Origin: Candidatus Zixiibacteriota bacterium
Lineage (GTDB): Bacteria > Zixibacteria > MSB-5A5 > GN15 > FEB-12
DNA: 64,000 nucleotides
NCBI GenBank assembly: GCA_040753875.1
Contig: JBFMDV010000013.1
Span: 1-64,000, forward strand
Direction: 5' to 3'
Within the stretch, counting starts at the first letter, position 1, and every line of letters starts with the position of its first letter. This document shows positions 9,912-16,885 of this stretch, piece after piece. Under the pieces are notes generated by a model, which worked only from the letters and a program-made list of their open reading frames with translations, did not search any database and had not been told where the DNA came from. The position numbers and the translations under genes are program-made.

Positions 9912-10985
9912 TTGGCAGTGTTAGATAATGTCGATACCATTCGCTCGGTCGACCCGGGCAATATGTATAACCGGATTTTCGACTTTCCGGAGCAGGTGGC
10001 CGAGGCGTTCAAACTCGCCGAGGGGTGGAAGGTCAACCCGACCGATTTCGCCGGCGTCAAAAATATCGTCCTGATCGGCATGGGCGGGTCGGCCATCGGC
10101 GGTGACCTGGTCCGCACCTATCTCGGGGCACGACTACAGGTCCCCATGGTGATCTGCCGTCATTACGCCTTGCCGGAATTCGTCGATGATGAGACGCTGG
10201 TGATTGCCTCGTCCTATAGCGGCAATACCGAAGAGACCATGTCGGCGCTCGATGATGCCCTGGGGCGCAAAGCTATGCTGGTGGCGCTCACCACCGGTGG
10301 CATGATGGCGGAAGTTTGCAAATTGAATGATATCCCCATGCTGACCCTTCCGGCCGGTTTGCAGCCGCGTGCGGCGCTGGGGTATTCGATGATCCCGCTG
10401 CTGGTACTCTTCGACCGCATCGGATTGGTCAAAGGGCTGGTCAAGGAGATCCCGCAGACGATCAAAGAGATGCAAATGCGGCGGGAGGTGTATATCGAAG
10501 ACACGCCGACGGAAAAGAATCTGGCCAAAGCGGTCGCCGCCAGACTGCACGGCCGCATTCCGATTATCTATGGCGGTCCGGTGCTCACTGATGTCGTGGC
10601 GGTGCGATGGAAGGGGCAGATGTGCGAGAACGGCAAGAATATGGCGTTCGCCAACCAGTTTCCGGAGTTCAATCACAACGAGTTGGTCGGTTATTGTGAT
10701 GTGCTCAAGCCCCACAAGGACCATCTCGTGGTGGTGATGATTCGGACCGGCGACGATCACCCCAAGGTGACCAAACGGATCGACATTGTGAAAGGGATCA
10801 TCGAGAAGTCCGGCGTGCCGGTGGTGGATGTCTGGGGGATGGGGACAACCCCGCTGAGTCGGCTATTGTCGCTGGTGCAGCTTGGGGATTTCGTCTCCTA
10901 CTATCTGGCGATCCTGAACAACGTGGATCCAACACCGGTGGCGGCGATCGAGACCCTGAAGAAAGCGCTGGCCGAAGGCAACTGA
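9912..10985 (+). CDS. Bifunctional phosphoglucose/phosphomannose isomerase
   Basis: A 357-residue SIS-domain isomerase of the PGI/PMI family, which interconverts glucose-6-P or mannose-6-P with fructose-6-P. Typical motifs are IGMGGSAIGGDLVRTYLG, SSYSGNTEETMS and the C-terminal AFANQFPEFNHNELVG. The start is either TTG 9912 or GTG 9918; AGGAAA at 9898-9903 suits TTG 9912. It follows ptsI after 14 bp. It is probably the cell's phosphoglucose isomerase if no classical pgi exists elsewhere, which cannot be judged from this window. Confidence 0.92.
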   Translation: MAVLDNVDTIRSVDPGNMYNRIFDFPEQVAEAFKLAEGWKVNPTDFAGVKNIVLIGMGGSAIGGDLVRTYLGARLQVPMVICRHYALPEFVDDETLVIASSYSGNTEETMSALDDALGRKAMLVALTTGGMMAEVCKLNDIPMLTLPAGLQPRAALGYSMIPLLVLFDRIGLVKGLVKEIPQTIKEMQMRREVYIEDTPTEKNLAKAVAARLHGRIPIIYGGPVLTDVVAVRWKGQMCENGKNMAFANQFPEFNHNELVGYCDVLKPHKDHLVVVMIRTGDDHPKVTKRIDIVKGIIEKSGVPVVDVWGMGTTPLSRLLSLVQLGDFVSYYLAILNNVDPTPVAAIETLKKALAEGN

Positions 10986-10995
10986 GATTCCGGCA

Positions 10996-11214
10996 GTGGC
11001 GTTCGTATTAAGCAGGGACACATTGATCGAGGATCTGGTACAAGCCCGCCCGGATGCGGTGGGCTTTCTTATTGAGCATGGTCTGCCCTGTGTAGTGTGT
11101 GGCGAGCCATTTTGGGGCACACTGGCTGAACTGGCACAGCAGAAGAACTTCACCGACTCGCAGATCGAGTCCCTGATCGCGGATTTTGGGCGAACCCATG
11201 CCGAAACGGATTGA
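10996..11214 (+). CDS. DUF1858 domain protein
   Basis: A 72-residue protein of the DUF1858 family, a small domain often called the hybrid-cluster-protein-associated redox disulfide domain. It has the expected start (LIEDLVQARPDAVGFLIEHG) and the CxxC pair CVVCG, followed by GTLAELA. It starts with GTG eleven bases after the PGI/PMI stop, and the next gene begins seven bases after its stop, so it is embedded in the operon. The CxxC may act in redox or metal chemistry, but no function is established. Confidence 0.8.
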   Translation: MAFVLSRDTLIEDLVQARPDAVGFLIEHGLPCVVCGEPFWGTLAELAQQKNFTDSQIESLIADFGRTHAETD

Positions 11215-11220
11215 ACAGAT

Positions 11221-12174
11221 TTGTTGCCGAGTCGTCGTTCTTTGTGGATGCATACTTTCGTGCGAGGCCCACGCGTGAGCCGGTCTGAACAGTTCAGCCA
11301 TCAGACAGTTTGCGGGCGTCTGACCGGTCTCTTGGTCGGCGCTTTCTTTGGCATTCTATTGTACCCCGCCATGGCGATGGCCCAGGAGCCGGACAGTACG
11401 CTGTTTCGGAGCGACCGGATCAACGCCCTAATTCTGGTAATAATCTTTTCGACAGCGGTCTTATTGTACACCCGATGGGCGAAACAGGGGAAGCCGCTTT
11501 TCATACGGAAAATCGCCGGGCTGGATGCGATTGAAGAAGCGGTGGGGCGCGCCACCGAGATGGGGAAGCCGGTGCTCTATATCCCGGGGCTTCAGGAACT
11601 CGATGATATTCAAACGATCGCCGGCATTTCGATCCTGGGCCGGGTGGCCAAGATTACGGCCCAGTACGAAACGCCGCTGGTGGTGCCGGTGCGATACCCG
11701 CTGGTTCTGGCGGCCGGCCAGGAAGTGGTCGAACAAGCGTATGTGGAGCAGGGGAAGAAAGATTCCTACAACAAGGATACCGTTCGGTACGTAGCGGGGG
11801 AGCAGATGGCATTTGCGGCGACAGTCAACGGCATGATGATGCGGGAGCGTCCTGCGGCGAATATTTTTATGGGGGCGTTTTTCGCCGAATCACTGCTGTT
11901 GGCCGAAACCGGCAATGCGGCCGGGTCAATTCAGATAGCGGGCACGGCGCTTCCGGAGCAAATCCCGTTTTTTATCGCAGCGTGTGACTACACCCTGATG
12001 GGCGAGGAACTGTACGCGGCTTCGGCATACTTGTCGCACGAGCCGCTGCTGCTTGGCGGGCTCAAGGGACAGGATTTCATGAAAGTGATCATAGCGATCT
12101 GCATTCTCCTGGGGGTCGCTCTGGTGGTGTTCGGAGTGGGGGATCAATTCGTGGAGTTTTTCCGTCACCAATGA
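11221..12174 (+). CDS. Membrane protein, DUF6754-like
   Basis: A 317-residue protein, first of four coupled genes for membrane proteins. The N-terminus has a hydrophobic signal segment ending AMAMA-QEP, a second membrane span (INALILVIIFSTAVLL), a large soluble domain (about residues 80-285, beginning AGLDAIEEAVGRATEMGKPV), and a C-terminal span (VIIAICILLGVALVVFGVG). The soluble domain resembles the uncharacterised DUF6754 family as I recall it. The frame opens at TTG 11221; ATG 11248 is an alternative start. Its stop overlaps the next start (ATGA). The job is unknown. Confidence 0.7.
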   Translation: MLPSRRSLWMHTFVRGPRVSRSEQFSHQTVCGRLTGLLVGAFFGILLYPAMAMAQEPDSTLFRSDRINALILVIIFSTAVLLYTRWAKQGKPLFIRKIAGLDAIEEAVGRATEMGKPVLYIPGLQELDDIQTIAGISILGRVAKITAQYETPLVVPVRYPLVLAAGQEVVEQAYVEQGKKDSYNKDTVRYVAGEQMAFAATVNGMMMRERPAANIFMGAFFAESLLLAETGNAAGSIQIAGTALPEQIPFFIAACDYTLMGEELYAASAYLSHEPLLLGGLKGQDFMKVIIAICILLGVALVVFGVGDQFVEFFRHQ

Positions 12175-12848
12175 AGACCACGGTCCCACTGATTATCGCA
12201 TTCCTGGCCGGACTCGCCATGGTGCTTTCGTTTTTCTCCGGTCCGGGCGTGCCGGTGGTGCGTGATATTTCCGCCGAGTTTCTGATCTGGAGCTCAATCA
12301 TCGGCGGCTTCTCGTTCCTGCTTGGCGTCGTGTCCATCACGCGCGTGAACTGGCGCAAGGTTGCGGCGCGACAGCACGGCTGGGGCTACAATCTGGTCAC
12401 TGTCATTTCGGTGTTTGTCATGGGACTCCCGGCTCTGATACCTGCCGGCTGGCTGCCGGAGGGGATGACATCACTGGCCGGGCGTAACGCGGGATCGGTC
12501 TACGATTGGCTGTTTGTAAACATCATGACCCCCATGAGCCAAACTATGTTCGCAATTCTGGCGTTCTATATTGCCTCGGCCGCCTATCGGGCGTTTCGAA
12601 CCCGCAGCACCGAAGCCACGCTTCTCCTGTTGACCGCCTCGCTGGTAATGCTCTGGCGTGTCCCCATGGGAGAAGCGCTTCTCAACACGATTACCCCGGC
12701 GCTCCCGGATTTCATCAACACCTATATTATGAACGGCGTCAACCTGTCGGTGCAACGCGGTATCATTATCGGGGCGGCACTCGGAGCCGCCACCATGTCG
12801 CTCCGCATAATCCTCGGTATCGAGCGCACGTATATGGGGAAGGGATAA
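12171..12848 (+). CDS. Polytopic membrane protein of unknown function (module gene 2)
   Basis: A 225-residue integral membrane protein with about six predicted spans: TVPLIIAFLAGLAMVLSFF, LIWSSIIGGFSFLLGVVSI, LVTVISVFVMGLPALI, MFAILAFYIASAAYRAF, TLLLLTASLVMLWRV, and a C-terminal hydrophobic stretch containing GIIIGAALGAATMSLRIILG. It has no signature I recognise. The start codon overlaps the stop of the preceding gene and the stop lies three bases before the next start, so the four proteins are probably made together and may form a complex. Confidence 0.7.
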   Translation: MKTTVPLIIAFLAGLAMVLSFFSGPGVPVVRDISAEFLIWSSIIGGFSFLLGVVSITRVNWRKVAARQHGWGYNLVTVISVFVMGLPALIPAGWLPEGMTSLAGRNAGSVYDWLFVNIMTPMSQTMFAILAFYIASAAYRAFRTRSTEATLLLLTASLVMLWRVPMGEALLNTITPALPDFINTYIMNGVNLSVQRGIIIGAALGAATMSLRIILGIERTYMGKG

Positions 12849-12851
12849 CCG

Positions 12852-13700
12852 GTGAATCTCTGGCAGCAACTGGACAAGCTCGACCGTCGCTGGGTCTTCC
12901 TTCTCGTCTGGATCGCCGCTGTTATCCCCCTGATCGTCCCGGCCACGTTCAAGATCAGTATCTCTCCCGAGGGGAAGAGTCTGTTTGAGGCGGTCGACCG
13001 CCTGCCGGACTCGTCGACTGTTATCCTGACGTTCGACATCTGGCCGAACGCGCTGGCCGAGACCGAGCCGATGGAGAGGGCCGCCCTACATCATCTGTTT
13101 CGCAAGAACATGTATGTTATTACCGTGGCCAATATTCCGCTTGGTGGGCCATCGGTGGCCGAGCGTGTGACCCGCGAACTGGCAGCGCAATACGGCAAGA
13201 CGTACGGTGTTGATTATGTCAACCTGGGTTACAAGCCGGGGTATGTGTCGGTTCTGCGGGGGATGGGGACATCGATTGAGGGGATCTTCCCGACTGACAA
13301 CAGCGGGACGCCACTGTCTGAACTTCCGCTCATGCAGCGGGTGAAGAATTACGAGCAGGTCGATTTCATCTTCGTAGTAGCCGACAACGCCACGGTCGAC
13401 TACTGGGTGTCGATAGTCAACGCCCAGTTCAGAAAACCGGTAGGGGCGGGTGTGACCGCAGTTATGGCGCCCAAGCAGTTTGCATATGTTGGATCCGGTC
13501 AGTTGGTAGGACTTCTGGGCGGGATGAAAGGGGCAGCCGAATATGAAAAGCTGGTCGGAAAGAGCGGACTGGCCACCACCGGCATGGGGATGCAGTCGCT
13601 GGTCCATTTCCTGCTCATAGCCCTGATCGTGGTCGGTAACGTGGGGTACATTGTCACTCGGCAGGTTGCACGCACGCGCGAACGGAAGGTGAAGGCGTGA
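12852..13700 (+). CDS. Membrane-anchored alpha/beta protein of unknown function (module gene 3)
   Basis: A 282-residue protein, GTG start, with one membrane span near each end (VFLLVWIAAVIPLIVPATF at about 15-33, and LVHFLLIALIVVGNVGYIV near 250-270). The roughly 210-residue domain between them alternates beta strands and helices (TVILTFDIWPNA, YVITVANIPLGG, FIFVVADNATVDYWV, GVTAVMAP), suggesting a Rossmann-like fold outside the cytoplasm. It has no catalytic motif I recognise. Its stop codon overlaps the start of the next gene (GTGA). Confidence 0.7.
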   Translation: MNLWQQLDKLDRRWVFLLVWIAAVIPLIVPATFKISISPEGKSLFEAVDRLPDSSTVILTFDIWPNALAETEPMERAALHHLFRKNMYVITVANIPLGGPSVAERVTRELAAQYGKTYGVDYVNLGYKPGYVSVLRGMGTSIEGIFPTDNSGTPLSELPLMQRVKNYEQVDFIFVVADNATVDYWVSIVNAQFRKPVGAGVTAVMAPKQFAYVGSGQLVGLLGGMKGAAEYEKLVGKSGLATTGMGMQSLVHFLLIALIVVGNVGYIVTRQVARTRERKVKA

Positions 13701-14323
13701 GCGGCTGGGAGATCTTCCAGATCTGGCTGATGGCGTTTCTCACGCTGGCCATTTTCTCGTTTTTGTACAGAGACAACCCACTGTTCAAGTTCGTCGAGCA
13801 TATGTATGCCGGACTCTCGACCGGCTATTACCTCGGACTGTACTATGATACGGTGATCAAGCAGCGGCTGTGGATGCCTCTGAGCGAACAAGGGGAATGG
13901 TGGTTGATTGTGCCTGGCCTGCTTGGGTTCTTGATGTTCGCCCGGCTCTCCACGCGGTATTCCTGGCTGGCGCGACTGGGACTTGCCTTCGTGATGGGGA
14001 CCACGTCAGGTGTTTACCTGCTATCGGAACTTCACGGCAATGTGCTGGGGCAGATGGTCGGCACGATGTCACCACAGCGAGTTCAGGGGATGGTCAACTG
14101 GTGGCTTACCGCTATCGTAGTTGTGGGGCTTATCACAACTTTGATCTATTTCTATTTTTCCAAGGAGCACCGGGGGGTGTTGGGGGGAACAGCCCGAGTC
14201 GGCATCTGGTTTATTATGGTTTCGTTTGGGGCCCATTTCGGATACACCGTGATGGGGCGGGTATCGCTGCTGATTGGACGGGTCTATTTCCTCTGGAACG
14301 ACTGGATCGGAACGATGCGGTAG
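13697..14323 (+). CDS. Polytopic membrane protein of unknown function (module gene 4)
   Basis: A 208-residue membrane protein, GTG start, last of the coupled set. Predicted spans include IWLMAFLTLAIFSFLY, LIVPGLLGFLMFARL, LGLAFVMGTTSGVYLL, LTAIVVVGLITTLIYFYF and GIWFIMVSFGAHFGYTVM. Charged and aromatic residues (EHMYAGLSTGYYLGLYYD) lie between the first two spans. No family is recognised. It ends five bases before the stop of the convergent AAA+ gene. Confidence 0.7.
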   Translation: MSGWEIFQIWLMAFLTLAIFSFLYRDNPLFKFVEHMYAGLSTGYYLGLYYDTVIKQRLWMPLSEQGEWWLIVPGLLGFLMFARLSTRYSWLARLGLAFVMGTTSGVYLLSELHGNVLGQMVGTMSPQRVQGMVNWWLTAIVVVGLITTLIYFYFSKEHRGVLGGTARVGIWFIMVSFGAHFGYTVMGRVSLLIGRVYFLWNDWIGTMR

Positions 14324-14328
14324 CGAAC

Positions 14329-15717
14329 CTAATCGTCGAACTGAAACTCCAATTGTCCGGAGAAGAGGCGATCCTCGCCTGTGATTGACTTCCTGTGTGT
14401 CTGAAGCTTCTCCATCGCTTCTCGTTGGATATCGGTTCCCAATGCCCCGGTGATTGCTGCAAATAAGGTCATTCCCGTCATCCTGTAGTATGTCGCTTTG
14501 CCCCTCTCTTCGACTGAAAGAAGTTTCTTCTTTACCAGGCCCTTGAGCGCGGCAGAAAAAGCTTGCGGGGTTTTGTAGCCGTATTTTGCAAAGTCTTTTG
14601 GACGACAGCTTTCTTTGTCTGCTACTGCCTTAAGTATATTCGTGGCGGCAGTAGACAACTCAAGATCCTTCGCACGCTCATGCGCAAGTTGCACGAATGC
14701 TGACATTGCGACGTCGGTGGGTATGGGATTTAGGGACGGGTTTACCATAATCACGCTTTTCACGAGGTCACCAGAGGTCTTGAGCGTCTCGCGGATTTCT
14801 CGCATGGAAAAGTGGTGAATTATTTTTATGGTTTCGTCGGTCAAGGGACTCCGAATAGAGTCTTGCTTCCGAAACATCTGCACTCGACGGTCTATCACCT
14901 CTTTCGCCTTCTCATATGTCAAAGGCGGGATGTATAGCTCTGTACCAGACAGATAATTTGCCACCCGGCTAATCTCTGTTTCTATGATACTACCTACTCC
15001 CTTTCTGCCAATGACAGTCCAGTAAATGCCCGGGAGGTCAAACAGCTCATCTCTGGCAGCATTAAAGAAGGTCACCAACCGCTCTTTGGACAGGAGGTCA
15101 AGATTATTGACGAGTATGAACACACCGCGAAATCCGAGCTTCTCTCTTGCAATCTCCACCAAATGCGTCAGGTGAATCCGCCCATTTTTAATGACGTTCT
15201 GTGCCTTTCCCTCAGCCGAACGTCCGAAGTCAAGCCCTGAGCCTAAAAGGGAAGCACCGATGCTGACACCGGCGCCACCGGTCTTAATCATGACATCAAG
15301 AAATACAGATAGAATCTCTTGAACTTCTTTGGGCGGTTCGATCTTTTCCAACCGACAATGCAGTGCGATGCTAATACACACGGACGTAATTGTCTGTTGG
15401 ATGAAAAGGTCTAAGTCGTCCGCCTCCCTGATCTGAATCTTCTCGAAGCAAGGCAGAACCCTGGGAAGTGCAAACCTGAAGCCCTCAGGTTCTTGGTTTA
15501 TGTAGGAAAAGTATTGGCAGGCGTTGACGAAAGTCGTCTTGCCAACGCCGACCTCTCCGGTAACCACTTTTAATGAACGCTCACCGCTTAGAGTATCGAC
15601 TAAATATCTGTTTATCTCTTTGTCGCGGCCGACAAAAAGCTTAATGTCTTGCTCTGTGGGCCGCAGTGGCTCCACGAAGAAAATATCGCGATTGAATCCG
15701 AGATGTGCCCAAATCAA
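14329..15717 (-). CDS. AAA+ ATPase with C-terminal winged-helix-like region
   Basis: A 462-residue P-loop ATPase. The Walker A is GEVGVGKTTF (about residues 53-62) and the Walker B is VFILVNNLDLL, with Asn-Asn-Leu-Asp in place of the usual acidic pair. The last 120 residues resemble a winged helix (DFAKYGYKTPQAFSAALKGL, then KKKLLSVEERGKATYY), as in Orc1/Cdc6-like or transposon-associated ATPases. GC content is visibly lower than in the neighbours, and the gene is alone on its strand between unrelated genes, both signs of transfer. It may regulate transcription, act in DNA processing or belong to a defence-type locus; none of these is shown. Confidence 0.75.
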   Translation of the reverse strand: MIWAHLGFNRDIFFVEPLRPTEQDIKLFVGRDKEINRYLVDTLSGERSLKVVTGEVGVGKTTFVNACQYFSYINQEPEGFRFALPRVLPCFEKIQIREADDLDLFIQQTITSVCISIALHCRLEKIEPPKEVQEILSVFLDVMIKTGGAGVSIGASLLGSGLDFGRSAEGKAQNVIKNGRIHLTHLVEIAREKLGFRGVFILVNNLDLLSKERLVTFFNAARDELFDLPGIYWTVIGRKGVGSIIETEISRVANYLSGTELYIPPLTYEKAKEVIDRRVQMFRKQDSIRSPLTDETIKIIHHFSMREIRETLKTSGDLVKSVIMVNPSLNPIPTDVAMSAFVQLAHERAKDLELSTAATNILKAVADKESCRPKDFAKYGYKTPQAFSAALKGLVKKKLLSVEERGKATYYRMTGMTLFAAITGALGTDIQREAMEKLQTHRKSITGEDRLFSGQLEFQFDD

Positions 15718-15799: not shown

Positions 15800-16885
15800 A
15801 TGAGAGCGAATAGATGCTTGTCAATGGCGGTTTTGGTGTTTTGCGCCGAAATCTTTGTAGTGCTGTCCGGCTGCGGCTATGACCCCGAGACGCCGGTCTA
15901 TGACACGACAAAAAACCCGGACAAGTTCCCGTCGCCGGCTCTTTCGCTCCTTGATGGTGTCCGGTCCGGCAGTCTGGACAGCTACGACACGGTTGTTGCC
16001 TCTTTCGGCAACCTCTACACGGGTAATCCGGAGCTTTTGGATGACTACCGGTGGCGCAAAGTGATCGAACGGCTTGGGGTGCAGTTCAAGTTCAAGGCGG
16101 AGCAAGCTGCTGAAGCCGGGATCGTCGGTTTCGCCCGTGCCGCGCAATTCTACGGCCTGGCCAGCATGGCGCGCCCTCACGACGAGCGGCTTCGAAACCG
16201 CCAGGAGCTGTTCGCCGGGTGGATCCAGGCGATCAGTGATTCCATAATCCCAGGCGACTTCGATCCGGAGAAAGTGAAACTGTCCGAAGCTGACGAGTTG
16301 GCGCTTCTCAAATACTTTGTCCTGGGGGACACCCTTCACCGCGAGTTCGCCCGGCAGTACCTGATTCCGGAACTGCTGGTGATCAACCCACTCGACAAAC
16401 CGGCTTCAACTGAGAATATATCCAGTGCAGACCGATTGTTCCGGGTGCTCCTGGGACTCAAGCAGGAATCACCCCATGGCCGTATCGGTGTCTTCTCGGA
16501 CCCGCCGATCGACCTTGTCGCGGCACAGATAACCCGTCAGTCCGGCGACTGGTGTGCGGCTGAGTTCTACTTCGTCCCACATGAATCGCTGACCGTTAAT
16601 TACACGGTCGCGTTCCGCATTCAGGCGGCGGATTCAAGCGCAAAGGGGGGCACCCTGGCCGATAGTCAGGACCTGGTGTTTGACTTCCGGCCGGTCGTAC
16701 CGACCTCGCGCTGGAAGAGCGGCGAGCCGGCCGGAGTGTACCGGCGGTTTCGCTATGCCGGCCCGGCGGTCGAACTGCAGCTTGGTCTCTATGAACGGGG
16801 CGCCGACAGCGCGCATTTTGTCCGGGTGCTTGAGACAGGCGAGCGATTCCTCACCTTACCGACAAGCACGTTTCAGAGCAAATAG
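15800..16885 (+). CDS. Hypothetical lipoprotein
   Basis: A 361-residue lipoprotein if started at ATG 15800, where a hydrophobic segment (MAVLVFCAEIFVVLSGC) ends in the lipobox LSGC. The frame stays open further upstream but without signal-like sequence. After the Cys comes a Pro/Asp-rich linker, then a helical region (about 60-250) rich in charged residues, and a beta-rich C-terminal part with several Phe/Tyr strands. No family is recognised. It precedes the nucleotidyltransferase gene by 96 bp on the same strand. Confidence 0.7.
   Translation: MRANRCLSMAVLVFCAEIFVVLSGCGYDPETPVYDTTKNPDKFPSPALSLLDGVRSGSLDSYDTVVASFGNLYTGNPELLDDYRWRKVIERLGVQFKFKAEQAAEAGIVGFARAAQFYGLASMARPHDERLRNRQELFAGWIQAISDSIIPGDFDPEKVKLSEADELALLKYFVLGDTLHREFARQYLIPELLVINPLDKPASTENISSADRLFRVLLGLKQESPHGRIGVFSDPPIDLVAAQITRQSGDWCAAEFYFVPHESLTVNYTVAFRIQAADSSAKGGTLADSQDLVFDFRPVVPTSRWKSGEPAGVYRRFRYAGPAVELQLGLYERGADSAHFVRVLETGERFLTLPTSTFQSK

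Follow-up and report, generated by a model that had tools for sequence, protein, structure and literature searches.

A four-gene membrane module with a DUF6754 protein, conserved in Zixibacteria and other mostly uncultured phyla

Envelope machines such as Tol-Pal and ExbB-ExbD-TonB are built from several subunits in the inner membrane; they have conserved polar residues within the membrane and parts in the periplasm. DUF6754 (Pfam PF20539) is a membrane-associated piece of the locus described here and, to our knowledge, a family without assigned function. The locus consists of four consecutive genes, named g1 to g4, at positions 11221-14323 on the + strand of a 64,000-nucleotide stretch of a Candidatus Zixiibacteriota genome (the window; assembly GCA_040753875.1, contig JBFMDV010000013.1, positions 1 to 64,000). 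By the tests made, this module belongs to no described system, and DUF6754 is its sole catalogued piece. The four proteins very probably form one physical inner-membrane complex. A sequence-only reading of the window had already proposed one undescribed membrane complex, a proposal supported by the co-occurrence of the genes in a fixed order and by the lack of a known-family match, from which we infer assembly.

All four reading frames, with their lengths and junctions, are as first noted, and their positions were confirmed on the sequence. g1 (11221-12174, + strand, 317 residues) opens with TTG, with an alternative in-frame ATG about nine codons on (11248 or nearby), and shares an ATGA overlap with g2 (12171-12848, + strand, 225 residues). 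A 3-base gap separates g2 from g3 (12852-13700, + strand, 282 residues, GTG start), which overlaps g4 (13697-14323, + strand, 208 residues) through GTGA. Among all fetched loci, 176 of 206 g1-headed modules, from about a dozen phyla, carry all four genes on one strand in the order g1-g2-g3-g4; the median distances from stop codon to open reading frame (ORF) start are 8, 0.5 and -1 bases. About half of the incomplete modules run off the fetched sequence, and among the others are gaps in the assembly, ORFs that are split and a few g1 genes that appear solitary. Because the same order recurs in so many modules with near-zero gaps, the four-gene arrangement is far beyond chance.

The four genes have also been inherited together. 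Trees of g1 to g4 from 167 non-redundant modules gave patristic correlations of 0.76-0.87, and in 51-53 of 55 comparisons between modules sharing a locus or genome, the fit of true partners was better than that of swapped ones. The source genome (3.29 Mb, a Zixibacterium) holds five g3 and five DUF6754 copies, with five complete modules: that of the window, a tandem array of three on contig C5 (L011) and a fifth on contig C23 (L012). For each of these copies, the nearest relatives are in other genomes rather than among the other copies of the source genome. The paralogues are therefore old, and all have retained a complete four-gene set of their own. The recurrence of one gene order in many phyla and the five copies in the source genome thus bear out the expectation that the four genes stay together elsewhere.

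DUF6754 was found in all 132 Zixibacteria genomes searched, usually in four to six copies, and g3 in all 60 searched. Outside this phylum, where phylum names are the depositors' record labels, DUF6754 occurred in 57 of 59 sampled Cloacimonadota genomes and in 12 of the 16 genomes of a Gemmatimonadota/Gemmatimonadetes sample. It is also present in Stahlbacteria/WOR-3, Latescibacterota, Eisenbacteria, Coatesbacteria, Edwardsbacteria, Caldithrix, Aegiri-/Fermentibacteria and Riflebacteria. The module usually occurs in several copies (two to six) across at least ten, about a dozen, mostly uncultured phyla. DUF6754 was found in none of 14 named control genomes, and searches of plasmid records with g3 and of phage records with g1 gave no match.

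The sequence-only reading had called g1 DUF6754-like. The family was right, but the wording was too cautious: g1 is a full member, matching positions 3-250 of the 257 in PF20539 (248/257) with an E-value of 1.1e-117 and 392 bits, the gathering cut-off being 27 bits. No Pfam family, including transporter, channel and secretion families, scored above cut-off for g2, g3 or g4, and Pfam scans of 64-71 diverse homologues of each (64 for g2, 65 for g4) returned only scattered weak matches. NCBIfam and the PADLOC anti-phage defence models had no match for any of g1-g4. Sequence searches of the PDB, including those with diverse homologues, found nothing credible for g2-g4; for g1, the matches were to FN3 only, in the outer domain of paralogues. 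Across these four resources, none of g1-g4 was placed in a known transporter or secretion family, as first anticipated. Rfam and promoter scans gave nothing useful. A full-text literature search returned no mention of DUF6754 or PF13941, the MutL family discussed below, though the module could still figure in supplementary tables of novel-family surveys. Zixibacteria are not mentioned in the main text of two such surveys of uncultivated taxa (PMC10849945, PMC9727166).

All four products are membrane proteins, as first noted, with 2, 6, 2 and about 7 spans by alignment-averaged hydropathy. The division into two proteins with a domain between spans (g1, g3) and two polytopic ones (g2, g4) also holds. 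Topology was assigned from hydropathy and positive-inside charge bias. g1 has a signal-peptide-like N-terminus (judged by eye in the window copy and several orthologues), a first span at about 67-85, the DUF6754 domain at about 97-273 and a second span at about 289-307. The 12 residues that follow span 1 carry 4.5 K/R on average, and the DUF6754 domain is predicted to be cytosolic, with the N-terminus outside. g2 has conserved R140/R143, R196 and E218/R219, and is probably N-in/C-in. In g3, which has basic N- and C-termini, a span precedes a Rossmann-like domain (about 35-243) and a second span with conserved H252 and N263; the domain is predicted to be extracytoplasmic and both termini inside. 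g4 has invariant N27, E34, R83, Q119 and R188. Several of these polar residues, invariant or nearly so, are located within or next to spans (H252 and N263 in g3; N27, E34, R83 and R188 in g4) and suggest that these spans do more than anchor.

The outer part of g1 differs between copies. Most g1 paralogues carry an outer FN3 domain on the N-terminal side, and some have outer regions of about 700 residues. Examples of the latter are Cloacimonadota g1 genes with extracytoplasmic regions of this size (L177:5197-8124 and 10693-13482; L187), the second of the pair lacking g2-g4. At L150:954-3632, the N-terminal region looks by eye like a PQQ/WD-type beta-propeller that replaces FN3. Two very long g1 ORFs, at L045 and L170, join a stretch of Ns and were not counted as fusions.

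AlphaFold models of g3 (mean predicted local distance difference test score (pLDDT) 95.6, predicted template modelling score 0.90) and g1 (mean pLDDT 86.6, core mostly above 90) share one element order: span, helix, six strand-helix pairs, span. Compared with solved structures, with fold Z-scores from VIA-align, the g1 model is closest to Sir2 (1s7g_D; Z 12.2 over 137 residues, root-mean-square deviation (rmsd) 3.2) and reaches Z 9.3 against the ACDS/CODH epsilon subunit. The g3 model matches MT0777 (1kjn, Z 9.8) and ACDS epsilon (Z 9.6, 146 residues, rmsd 3.2). Foldseek returned no match with an E-value at or below 1e-3 for either model, and the fold is therefore described no further than as Rossmann-like, possibly DHS-like. 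The likeness of g1 to g3 lies in this shared order and in shared fold matches, not in sequence homology. Homology between g1 and g3 is unsupported (hhalign probability 9%, one span aligned only), as is homology between g2 and g4 (0.7%).

Module neighbourhoods hold two recurrent proteins. Within 8 kb, a MutL-family protein, of a family (PF13941) that we take to have the ASKHA fold, occurs at 30 of 100 loci that bear a module. The second protein, here called BSH, has 375 residues and combines a barrel-sandwich with a KOW-like motif at its C-terminus; it occurs at 29 of these loci, directly upstream of g1 in 21. The MutL sequence holds a phosphate-type motif, DCGSTTTKA. At locus L124, the MutL protein matches PF13941 with an E-value of 1e-124. 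It scores 223.6 bits against the NCBIfam model of the methylaspartate mutase accessory protein GlmL (NF040745), below the 475-bit equivalog cut-off, and is below the cut-off of the Or-4 model too. The barrel-sandwich of BSH is weakly RnfC_N-like in 10 of 17 members, and the protein has a weak RnfC_N/NqrA_N likeness. In Gemmatimonadetes, Aegiri-/Fermentibacteria and others, a small protein, MutL, BSH and the module follow one another in that order. The small protein beside MutL and the module (L124:9219-9569 and 11 other loci) has about 115-180 residues and no Pfam family; in L124 it carries the motif LESAKPLSFIGSQ.

Directly upstream of a Cloacimonadota module with a 1,151-residue g1, MutL and BSH are fused in one protein of 1,057 residues (L188:3706-6879). 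Further BSH-type matches lie in frames of about 830-1,080 residues in other genomes. BSH was present in 123 of 132 Zixibacteria and in all 12 genomes with DUF6754 of the Gemmatimonadota sample. Of the four genomes in that sample without DUF6754, three have no BSH either; in the remaining one, the contig ends within BSH, on the side on which a module would be expected. Because BSH also occurs in the two sampled Cloacimonadota genomes without detected DUF6754, the link between the two is not absolute.

Other copies adjoin known envelope systems. On contig C5 of the source genome, the triple module is divergent from a run of MutL, BSH, TolQ, TolR, a TonB/TolA-like protein, TolB, Pal and a TPR protein. 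In WOR-3, a DUF4388 protein and ExbB-ExbD-ExbD-TonB come after the module; the genes between module and ExbB (L179:11423-14289) include, besides the DUF4388 protein, four small unassigned proteins conserved in five loci. In Aegiribacteria, a TonB-dependent-receptor-like protein (by eye) and ExbB-ExbD come after the module. These neighbours point to a role across the cell envelope.

The window copy has a different setting, with HPr, PtsI, PGI/PMI, a nucleotidyltransferase and MetK, which is kept mainly within Zixibacteria. The HPr, PtsI, PGI/PMI and CVVC genes are present as first noted. Functional partnership with ptsHI, PGI and MetK was considered and rejected: because this setting is confined mainly to one paralogue group, that of the window, in Zixibacteria, the ptsHI/PGI neighbourhood is probably not the functional clue, and the wider context is MutL-BSH plus Tol-Pal or ExbBD-TonB. 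The small CVVC protein lies at 11002-11214, between PGI/PMI and g1; its match to DUF1858 is weak and below cut-off.

Taken together, we favour one inner-membrane complex that links cytosolic state to the periplasm, with a probability of about 0.45. In such a complex, g2 and g4 would form a core of about 13 spans that serves as a conduit. g1 would place its Rossmann-like DUF6754 domain in the cytosol and its N-terminus, with FN3 or a larger domain in most paralogues, outside, while the Rossmann-like domain of g3, with its elements in the same order, would lie on the outer face. The domains on either face could be sensors or drivers, and through the complex an energy or ligand state in the cytosol would be relayed to the periplasm. 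The MutL-family ASKHA ATPase and BSH might supply a cytosolic ATP-dependent step in one paralogue group, a partnership to which we give even odds. Paralogous copies with different outer domains would then serve different partners. That the complex is a trans-envelope machine for transport, force or signal we hold to be somewhat short of even. The fuller picture of a hitherto undescribed class of energised envelope machine, central to a dozen mostly uncultured phyla, with four subunits, Rossmann-like domains on both faces, MutL driving or gating it through a BSH adaptor, and Tol-Pal or TonB-ExbBD working with it, is tentative.

Several observations weigh against this linking complex. MutL-BSH and the Tol/TonB neighbours are limited to some paralogue groups, and neither lies near the window copy. 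In g1-g4, no motif for catalysis or transport was recognised, and the structure models cover g1 and g3 only, as single chains. Mutual information between subunits was marginally above a neighbour-swapped control, at an effective number of sequences of 135. Some g1 genes are solitary, such as the second large g1 in Cloacimonadota (L177, L187), which is without g2-g4 and may act alone there.

The last two points would also fit merely co-transcribed envelope proteins that form no single complex. We consider this quite improbable, as invariant order in many phyla, copies kept as whole sets and unmixed partners would be difficult to account for if no stable complex were formed. A sensory or signalling complex is unlikely on balance; in it, a ligand or a cue from the envelope would be bound by the outer domains of g1 together with that of g3, and passed on to the cytosol by the DUF6754 domain. 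The outer region of g1 is indeed the variable part (none, FN3, about 700 residues, propeller-like), multiple paralogues would fit different inputs, and DUF4388 is among the genes after g4 in WOR-3. Nevertheless, the neighbour survey found no recurrent kinase, cyclase, receiver or helix-turn-helix gene beside the module, and the polar residues conserved within g3 and g4 spans suggest a function beyond anchoring.

Enzymatic and export roles fare less well. A membrane NAD(P)- or flavin-linked oxidoreductase, or a transhydrogenase-like enzyme, would use both Rossmann-like domains; the Sir2 and ACDS epsilon matches are to DHS-like NAD/FAD-binding folds, and BSH has its weak likeness to RnfC_N/NqrA_N. 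However, a common fold proves no function, the Foldseek E-values are poor, and the conserved columns lack a Gly-rich dinucleotide motif following strand 1, a Cys motif for Fe-S and a His pair for haem, which leaves this enzyme improbable. An accessory to a Gld-type ABC exporter, with g3 as the analogue of GldG/ABC_transp_aux, would account for an extracytoplasmic alpha/beta domain between two spans, and the C23 paralogue does adjoin an ABC ATPase and an ABC-2 permease (the permease named by eye). Yet ABC genes are common neighbours by chance, probably so here, and are missing from most modules. Moreover, hhalign of g3 against eight ABC_transp_aux (PF09822) proteins from the same phylum gave a probability of 0.3%, which largely refutes the GldG hypothesis and makes the exporter role scarcely credible.

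Downstream of g4, the window holds a candidate accessory lipoprotein at 15800-16885 on the + strand (start estimated), with the lipobox LSGC. Its counterpart lies directly 3' of g4 in eight other Zixibacterial loci, which is weak evidence that it belongs with the module; in the window, a reverse-strand gene separates the two. That gene (14329-15717, - strand) encodes a P-loop (AAA_16-like) protein with a C-terminal winged-helix (MarR_2-like) region. Its GC content is 0.487 and its third-position GC (GC3) 0.553; neighbouring genes that were tested have a GC3 of about 0.70-0.74. Judging by its composition and its place between g4 and the lipoprotein, the gene is probably a horizontal insertion.

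The marker gene of this module is in every searched Zixibacteria genome and nearly every Cloacimonadota one, yet no characterised homologue was found. So wide a presence suggests that the module has a core role in the envelope of these lineages, most of which cannot yet be grown. With the gene set, topology, models and MutL-BSH link in hand, the question is directly testable. We regard the module as categorically new, with the reservation that its 'kind' depends on its function.

How the module compares with known systems differs from part to part. DUF6754 matches g1 in full, and the Pfam family leaves g2-g4 uncovered. The g1 and g3 models, with six strands that alternate with helices, may resemble DHS-like domains (Sir2, ACDS/CODH epsilon), to which they align over 137-146 residues with Foldseek E-values above 1e-3; unlike these domains, g1 and g3 have no visible nucleotide-binding motif and are set between membrane spans, and identity to them is about 6-12%. 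The neighbouring MutL protein is a member of the GlmL/MutL ASKHA family (PF13941), but differs from GlmL and Or-4 in score, being below both cut-offs, and in its genomic partners. Tol-Pal and ExbB-ExbD-TonB resemble the module in overall build. No sequence relation of g1-g4 to TolQRA or ExbBD was detected, no MotA/TolQ/ExbB, ExbD/TolR or TonB domain scored above the Pfam cut-off in g1-g4 of the window, and the topology differs, which makes the module a neighbour of these systems rather than a member. By analogy, it may nonetheless work like the Tol/ExbB-type envelope machines that lie near some of its copies.

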